64,000 nucleotides of DNA, taken from contig BPGU01000001.1 in NCBI GenBank assembly GCA_026003195.1, forward strand, positions 729,398 to 793,397, written 5' to 3'. The notes beneath the pieces are model-generated. The model worked only from the letters and a program-made list of their open reading frames with translations. It was not told the DNA's origin and ran no database searches. This DNA comes from Armatimonadota bacterium (lineage in GTDB: Bacteria; Armatimonadota; HRBIN16). A program made the translations under genes and the position numbers. Positions 60,091 through 62,704 of this stretch are shown piece by piece. Each line of letters starts with the position of its first letter. The first letter of the stretch is position 1.

Positions 60091-60166
60091 GCCGGCGTAG
60101 CTCAGTCGGTAGAGCGGCGCACTCGTAATGCGTAGGTCGGCGGTTCGAATCCGCCCGTCGGCTCCA
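60091..60166 (+). tRNA. tRNA-Thr (anticodon CGT); candidate integration site
   Basis: Acceptor GCCGGCG pairs with CGTCGGC; anticodon stem GCGCA/TGCGT with loop CTCGTAA; encoded CCA. An integrase gene starts the adjacent element, pointing towards this tRNA, so the attachment site probably lies in its 3' part. Confidence 0.97.
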
Positions 60167-61410: not shown

Positions 61411-61906
61411 GATGAACCTCCGTTGCCGTGATGTGTGAGGCGTCCAAAGAGGGCTTGACAGCGGTCAACAGTGGTGTTACAATCTAACCGCGTTCAGCAC
61501 CGCCCCTGCTGGACGCACCGCCAGCTTGGAGTCGCATCTCCGAGCTGGCTTTCTGTGTTTTCGTTGGCGCGGTGCACCCCACCTCACCGAACCACACCAA
61601 ACCACGCCACACCAGAAACTGTTGGCGCACTCGTCGTCTTCGTGTCGGCGTCACCGCGTTGCACACCGCGCCAGTGTCATCATAGCATGCCGTGCAAAAT
61701 ACGTCAACAGGTCATAAAAATTTATGACCTGTTGCAACAATCGTTAGATTGCAAAAATTGCGTCAGGTCGGCGATTTCGCCGACCTCATGCCACAATTGC
61801 AAGACAATCGGATTGTCTTGGATTGCAAAAGTTGCAACAGGTTGGAAATTTTTCCAACGTGTTGCAACAATCGCAAGACAGCAGCAGTGTGGACGGCAAG
61901 CGTTTT
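61411..61906. other. Non-coding region of the integrated element
   Basis: 496 bases with no gene I can support. 61420-61690 shows nothing recognisable apart from a GC-rich stretch with short inverted pieces. From 61700 it is AT-rich and filled by the hairpin cluster annotated separately. Confidence 0.6.
61702..61880. repeat. Cluster of three covarying hairpin units plus a fourth stem
   Basis: Three units each have the form AGGT-N6-NN-N6'-ACCT: 61709-61730 (core CATAAA/TTTATG), 61765-61786 (CGGCGA/TCGCCG), 61839-61860 (TGGAAA/TTTCCA, one mismatch in the closing bases). Core arms differ completely between units but stay complementary. Flanks GATTGCAAAAxTTGC, TTGCAACAATCG and GCAAGACA repeat. 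A further hairpin CAAGACAATCG/GATTGTCTTG lies at 61799-61820. Confidence 0.8.
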
Positions 61907-62704
61907 TTATTCCTCAAGGGGTTCCAGTTTCAAGGCGCGAAGGCGGGTGTCCCACACAACGTGCCGGTGCAGCGATGCCAGCACCTGACGCAAAGGTACG
62001 CAAAGGTATTCAATGCCGTAGAGGACGTGGTTTTCTGTCAGCAACTCAGGAAACCAACCGAGATGCTTCGCCAAATGCGCTCGGGGAACCCACAGGTCGC
62101 CTCCGTCCTGCCTCGCCAGCAGCTTCGTGTCGCCCACGAACACGTTGACGTAGGCTGGCGGTTCTTCGGGTTCACACTGTGGCAGCGGTGCGCTGGCGAC
62201 GGCTTCCCTCAATCGGGCGCCCCACCCCACAAGGTCGTTCGTGTCCGGTTCAAGTTCGCCGTGTGTCAGCACGTCGCGAACATCAAGGTGGTAGCGTGAA
62301 CACAGCACGCGACAGAGGTGCACCAGACCGTTCCATTGGCGGTCGTTGGGCTGTGTGCCCACCACCAGCACGCCTGCGCTGCCAACGTTGAATCTCCTTG
62401 TGTGCCTCGCGTAGCCCTGCCCTCGTTGTGGTGAGGCGTTGTCACCCAGGGTGAACAACCCGCGTGCTACCGCGCCTGACCTGGCAATCAGAAAGTGGTA
62501 GCAAACCCGAAGGTCATCGAGGGGCTCGCAAACCTCTTCGGAGTGCACGACCACACGGCGAAGGCTGCATACAGGAAACCAGTCGTAGGGGAGAAAAAAA
62601 TCCCCCCACGATGACGCTCGACCTTCGTCATCGGAGGGGTTAGGCGAACAACCCACACTATTGGCAGCTAGCCTTGACACCGCGTATTGCTTCTTCCAAC
62701 GCAA
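61907..62704 (-). CDS. N-acetylmuramoyl-L-alanine amidase-like endolysin (phage)
   Basis: Up to 265 codons; start uncertain. The frame runs upstream into the end of the next gene and across a terminator hairpin at 62594-62639, so a start nearer 62580 is likely, though no good ATG is present. Amidase_2-type pattern: zinc His in RRVVVHSEEV, then VCYHFLIARSGAVARGLF, HTRRFNVGSAGVLVVGTQPN, QWNGLVHLCRVLCSRYHLDV, RDVLTHGELEP (second His). The C-terminal ~100 residues (VNVFVGDTKLLARQDGGDLW, VPRAHLAKHLGWFPELL) look like a copper-amine-oxidase-N/SH3-type wall-binding part. Would cleave host peptidoglycan for lysis. Confidence 0.62.
   Translation of the reverse strand: MRWKKQYAVSRLAANSVGCSPNPSDDEGRASSWGDFFLPYDWFPVCSLRRVVVHSEEVCEPLDDLRVCYHFLIARSGAVARGLFTLGDNASPQRGQGYARHTRRFNVGSAGVLVVGTQPNDRQWNGLVHLCRVLCSRYHLDVRDVLTHGELEPDTNDLVGWGARLREAVASAPLPQCEPEEPPAYVNVFVGDTKLLARQDGGDLWVPRAHLAKHLGWFPELLTENHVLYGIEYLCVPLRQVLASLHRHVVWDTRLRALKLEPLEE
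62594..62639 (-). terminator. Intrinsic terminator in the phage-like region
   Basis: Minus strand: CCCCTCCGATGACG (62626-62639), 9-base loop, CGTCATCGTGGGGGGA (62601-62616), then seven T (62594-62600). Strong, 18 bases after the terminase-like stop. Confidence 0.8.

Follow-up and report, generated by a model that had tools for sequence, protein, structure and literature searches.

The hairpins between the integrase and amidase genes of an integrated, satellite-like element form a tandem array, which lies at the same place in related elements of one genus and whose palindrome occurs once more within a phage gene. Our preferred reading, which we hold tentatively and as quite possible rather than probable, is that the units may be tandem intrinsic terminators that close off the satellite operon and so insulate the integrase, the palindrome being probably derived from a phage. 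The evidence comes from comparing the arrays, their surroundings and the phage copy. It also bears on a more general point, namely that the paired changes in the hairpin cores resemble the marks of a copying mechanism.

The satellite and its relatives

The element in the window (the whole stretch of 64,000 nucleotides that was analysed), here called E1, is about 7.5 kb long, is integrated at tRNA-Thr and is bounded by 45-bp direct repeats (Table 1). Its integrase and its operon point the same way. Besides the genes in the table, it encodes small proteins and an 829-aa replicase of the PrimPol-D5 type, and no capsid genes could be recognised in it. From its predicted proteins this is the gene make-up of a phage satellite. 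The first-pass annotation had placed the hairpins between the integrase and lysis genes of an integrated element. The integrated element was borne out as a small satellite, in which the supposed "lysis" gene encodes an Amidase_2-like protein and adjoins the small-terminase gene; close relatives of the amidase-like protein are confined to this genus.

Table 1. Features of E1 and of the control region with the hairpin array, in window positions
Feature	Position	Strand	Remarks
attL, tRNA-Thr(CGT) 3' end	60122..60166	+	45-bp direct repeat at G000:C1:797021-797065, outside the window
Tyrosine integrase, 380 aa	60268..61410	-	PF00589, PF14659
Antisense small RNA promoter	61455..61483	+	TTGACA-17-TACAAT, TGn ahead of -10
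Predicted antisense small RNA, ~70 nt	61490..61558	+	C-rich-loop hairpin, then intrinsic terminator
Leftward promoter	61679..61707	-	TTGACG-17-TATGAT; reads integrase leader; overlaps end of hairpin 1
Hairpin unit 1, promoter-proximal	61697..61742		core CATAAA/TTTATG; palindrome 61705-61734
Hairpin unit 2, 66-nt repeat	61744..61809		core CGGCGA/TCGCCG
Short extra palindrome CAAGACAATCGGATTGTCTTG	61800..61820		between units 2 and 3
Hairpin unit 3, amidase-proximal, 66-nt repeat	61818..61883		core TGGAAA/TTTCCA
Flank GCAAGACAGCAGCAGTGTGGACGGCAAGCG	61871..61902	+	resembles phage ParB-HTH-methylase coding sequence (..QDSSTGADGKR); non-coding in E1
Amidase_2-like protein, 265 aa	61907..62704	-	last gene in leftward operon
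Small terminase subunit (TerS), 123 aa	62658..63029	-	phrog_4044, 5.5e-24
Conserved satellite protein, 163 aa	63026..63517	-	
Conserved small protein, 88 aa	63514..63780	-	

The satellite family numbers nine copies in three genomes of one genus. The host genome (G000) holds three of them, E1 at tRNA-Thr, E2 at tRNA-Met and E3 at tRNA-Gly, with att repeats of 45, 67 and 58 bp respectively, the further satellites of this genome being found at G000:C1:825472-832134 and G000:C2:882306-890053. A second species of the genus, G005, has five (contigs C1, C2, C4 and C5) and G003 has one (C6). Three of the G005 satellites are seemingly identical and each lies at a contig end, which suggests recent spread. 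The satellite on G005:C4 is degraded, with broken replicase and amidase frames, and its four-unit hairpin array is still there. E1 is a mosaic over 61455-62704, being E3-like from the array through TerS and G5d-like in the promoter and antisense-RNA region, with the junction at the array. When 291 genomes of the phylum were searched by profile, the family came up in these three only, and no relatives were found among IMG/VR and GTDB contigs searched with the amidase protein, an amidase profile and the phage methylase described below.

These elements, of 6.7-8.4 kb, resemble the PICI/SaPI, P4-like and PICMI satellites in their tRNA integration, direct att repeats, tyrosine integrase, primase-helicase, terS, absence of capsid genes and multiple copies per genome. 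Features by which a PICI-type element is recognised were found, that is, an integrase with att repeats at a tRNA and a primase/replicase with terS in the absence of structural genes. They differ in that integrase and operon are co-directional and in that their satellite-specific protein families turned up in one genus only. PICIs have a divergent regulator pair (PMC6092414), and no such pair of the Stl/Rpr or AlpA style was recognised in these satellites. Several of them carry an opposite-strand gene of 200-270 aa ahead of the replicase, and that of E3, the only one tested, has no PHROGs match.

The hairpin array and its phage copy

The three palindromes that the first-pass annotation had described in 61702-61880, with a common frame of the AGGT...ACCT type and TTGCAA flanks, were confirmed and are well above chance. 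Counting perfect arms of at least 9, three were observed against 0.008 expected, and the maximum in 1000 dinucleotide shuffles was one. Unit 1 has perfect 14-bp arms around a 2-nt centre, unit 2 has perfect 10-bp arms (61765-61786) and unit 3 has arms of 16-17 bp with one mismatch (about 61839-61860), while a fourth palindrome with the arms CAAGACAATC/GATTGTCTTG had been missed in the earlier list. As RNA, the minus strand of 61690-61910 had a folding energy of -93.4 kcal/mol (z = -10.9). At the Rfam gathering threshold only tRNAs matched in the window, all other matches being weak and far below the gathering score, and on this ground a known RNA family was rejected for the array.

Hairpins occur in seven of the nine satellites, and two (G5d and G3) have none. 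There are three units in E1, three in E2, one in E3 and four in each of four G005 copies. In all seven the array is bordered by the amidase stop codon on one side and, on the other, by a strong, near-consensus promoter that points towards the integrase, and in G5d the promoter comes directly after the amidase stop. The units are mostly spaced by 64 and 74-75 nt, with a spacing of 56 nt in E1, and this spacing and the copy numbers (1/3/3/4/4) are as for tandem amplification.

A covariance model was made from 13 units and searched among 10 genomes of the genus, where the only strong matches were the satellite arrays and one further locus, G000:C8:23605-23670. A strict sequence pattern over 291 phylum genomes agreed, finding the satellites and one phage gene only; together, the model and pattern searches covered 10 genomes from the genus and between 201 and 291 from the phylum. 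A loose palindrome pattern had scattered matches in unrelated taxa and a stricter one had no match in IMG/VR. A dispersed element of the REP, MITE or Rickettsia type was rejected because the genomes searched with the model and the strict pattern gave no other strong matches. The likeness to the Rickettsia palindromic elements is that one palindrome of the family here also lies in frame in a gene, but the array palindromes are confined to these places rather than dispersed.

The additional locus lies on a 34.6-kb contig that encodes a portal, major capsid protein, head protease, terminase, endolysin and large serine integrase, and that is, judging from these genes, a temperate phage. Its palindrome is in frame in a gene for a ParB_N-HTH-N6/N4 methylase, just past the HTH. 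The match to this gene continues in the amidase-proximal flank of the satellite units (GGTGCGGATGGCAAG in E2 versus GGCGCAGACGGTAAG in the phage), giving about 80 bp in all. Differences between satellite and phage gene fall mostly at third codon positions, though the satellite flank is non-coding, and therefore the palindrome unit probably comes from a gene of the ParB-HTH-methylase type. From this pattern we infer the direction of capture, that is, that the satellites probably acquired the unit from such a phage gene. The palindrome may instead have been inserted into the phage gene, as the linker at this position is shorter in a homologous phage protein. What is new here is a phage-satellite family, seen in one genus, with a link between phage gene and satellite that can be traced. 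The phage contig also has a VRR-NUC gene in common with satellites (93% DNA identity over 229 bp with E3, 88% with G5a). This phage may be a helper or a mere co-resident. In G005, the genome with the most satellites, its capsid gene was not found. Because the assembly may be a metagenome bin, the assignment of the contig to this host is putative.

That the exchanged cores still pair holds also in the relatives, which carry further cores, nine core types in all. Over the 13 units 91.3% of the cells pair and 26 cells are double-changed, with a covariation score of 0.272 as compared to 0.119 in shuffles (0/500) and at most 0.102 when slid. The further step taken in the first-pass annotation, that compensatory change means that selection keeps the structure, is unsafe. 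Template-switch footprints consist of multiple compensatory changes, stem extension and inverted loops (PMC8794818, PMC8604942), and the pattern here, fast turnover included, matches replication template switching from one palindrome arm to the other, so that the paired changes alone are not proof of selection. Core pairs change by double substitutions, transversions included, with wobble intermediates almost absent. The centres are TT or AA in all units but one and flip between otherwise equal hairpins (E1.2 versus G5a.2, and E2.2 versus G5a.3), the core of G5e.4 is an extended stem, and the G5a and G5e arrays are nearly identical apart from one core. E1 and E3 show no difference in the 313 nt ahead of the unit and 21 differences in the following 71 nt, which span the hairpin. 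However, these two satellites differ throughout past the unit; the array is thus also a recombination joint, and some of the excess may be due to exchange. The strand preference of G-U versus A-C cells, judged by eye, was uninformative. The array shares with the published palindromes the multiple simultaneous paired changes, inverted loop, extended stem and homogenisation of arms, and differs from them in being a tandem array with exchange among units too. Perfect pairing may owe as much to arm-to-arm copying errors as to selection. The array can therefore serve as a worked example that textbook hairpin covariation need not mean selection for structure, and that flips and simultaneous changes in both arms point to a copying mechanism.

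Termination and other readings of the array

The array lies at the 3' end of the replication/packaging operon, immediately ahead of the integrase promoter, and this position suits insulation. In the mechanism that we propose, an ancestral satellite would have gained about 85 bp of a phage ParB-HTH-methylase gene, palindrome included, and the captured unit would then have multiplied to one to four copies. In the operon transcript (minus strand) each unit would form a strong hairpin with a T-rich run, and the units together would be tandem intrinsic terminators that block operon transcription from entering the integrase and antisense-RNA control region. Template switching between arms, together with recombination among units, would account for at least part of the perfect and yet changing cores, and such changes would be tolerated because any stem would serve termination.

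Of the 13 satellite units listed, 12 had their better terminator score on the operon-sense strand. On this strand the score was positive for E2 unit 1 (4.3), E2 unit 3 (14.5) and E3 (23.8) and near threshold in E1 (-4.9 and -6.0), whereas it was negative everywhere on the opposite strand and also for the intragenic phage copy, which has no T run. Against termination, the T runs are short (4-5), the four-copy arrays of G005 are below threshold (best -6.0), two of the nine satellites lack a hairpin at this site, and the outer arms (TTGCAA, GCATCAGGT) keep their sequence, a constraint that termination would not impose. Known tandem intrinsic (Rho-independent) terminators likewise consist of hairpins, each with a short T run on the strand of the operon, placed where the operon ends and before the next promoter. 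They are unlike the array in that here the outer arms are conserved, the stems reach 17 bp, the T runs are weak and the origin is apparently a coding palindrome. Terminator-like sites elsewhere in the window numbered 18 versus 15.5 and 15.9 expected; this is no clear excess and does not establish that the genome relies heavily on intrinsic terminators.

The conserved outer arms suggest another reading, in which the palindrome would be a dyad-symmetric protein site from the phage, the satellite would respond to or use a phage protein such as the ParB-HTH-methylase, and the array would be an operator of the abutting integrase promoter. We regard this as possible, if rather unlikely. Phage and satellites have in common the arms TTGCAA-N5-GCATCAGGT...ACCTGATGC-N5-TTGCAA and not the cores, and the usual unit spacings correspond to about 6 and 7 helical turns, although the 56-nt spacing in E1 is off whole turns. 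The centre of the nearest unit is 12.5 bp from the -35 box in E1, 42.5 bp in E2 and in E3 and about 40.5 bp in G5a, distances that are some three turns apart, and the shared VRR-NUC gene indicates that DNA moves between phage and satellites. However, pairing is not required of a spacer between half-sites, the promoter by itself comes near the consensus and is kept in the hairpin-less G5d, and no other strong sites were found near satellite or phage promoters. That the phage capsid gene was not found in the genome richest in satellites also speaks against this reading. A more specific proposal, which we consider doubtful, is that the palindrome is a recognition site in the phage's own ParB-HTH-methylase gene, and that the satellites copied it together with a scrap of the gene and multiplied it beside the integrase promoter to sense or exploit such phages; the location of the phage copy is a lead only, towards a putative parS-like site.

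The palindromes might also be a passive repeat without function, its copies made by slippage or recombination and its perfect pairing maintained as template switching during replication copies one arm from the other. The centre flips, the double substitutions with transversions, the abrupt change between E1 and E3, and the single core that differs between G5a and G5e all agree with the published footprints (PMC8794818, PMC8604942), and two satellites do without hairpins. The position of the array beside the integrase promoter is nevertheless constant in all hairpin-bearing copies and it is always the operon strand that carries the T run, and we think it unlikely, on balance, that the repeat is passive.

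Hairpin clusters act as origin, initiation or packaging sites elsewhere, the array adjoins terS, and the phage of the same genome has one copy of the palindrome. A replication origin, single-strand initiation site or packaging (pac/cos) site of the satellite is still very improbable here: the replicase of the hairpin-less G5d shares 83% identity with the E2 replicase over 817 aa, and its TerS 79% with that of E2, and hairpin-bearing satellites use different replicase families (PrimPol-D5 in E1, PrimPol-AAA_25 in E3). The replication origin that had been suggested at first is thus disfavoured, and so is an excision site, since the E1 array is 1.5 kb from att with the integrase gene between. In E2 and E3 the array is not adjacent to attP and lies several hundred bp from att, past the promoter and antisense RNA. 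On distance and on the different integrases, an attP arm or excision site was rejected.

Promoters and a predicted antisense RNA beside the integrase

The region with the array was borne out as a control region. A leftward promoter was found in E1, E2, E3, G5a, G5d and G5e. It would read directly into int in E1 and G5a, and in the circular form of E2, E3, G5d and G5e it is predicted to read across attP into int. Equivalents of the rightward promoter are present in E2, G5d and G5e, with weaker ones (9/12) in E3 and G5a. The convergent pair, near consensus in E1, is kept in six satellites, the hairpin-less G5d among them.

The first-pass annotation had considered a structured control RNA. Such an RNA is predicted next door to the hairpins rather than in them, as a small antisense RNA that runs opposite the integrase leader and ends in a terminator (stem 61520-61549, then a T-rich tail). 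All of its pairs (100%) are kept in six satellites, with six pairs double-changed (0/500 shuffles), although template switching is a possible source of these arm changes too. Promoter, terminator and position are in agreement, which makes this candidate the better-supported structured RNA of the region. As a clean prediction that lies over the integrase leader, the antisense RNA is open to direct testing.
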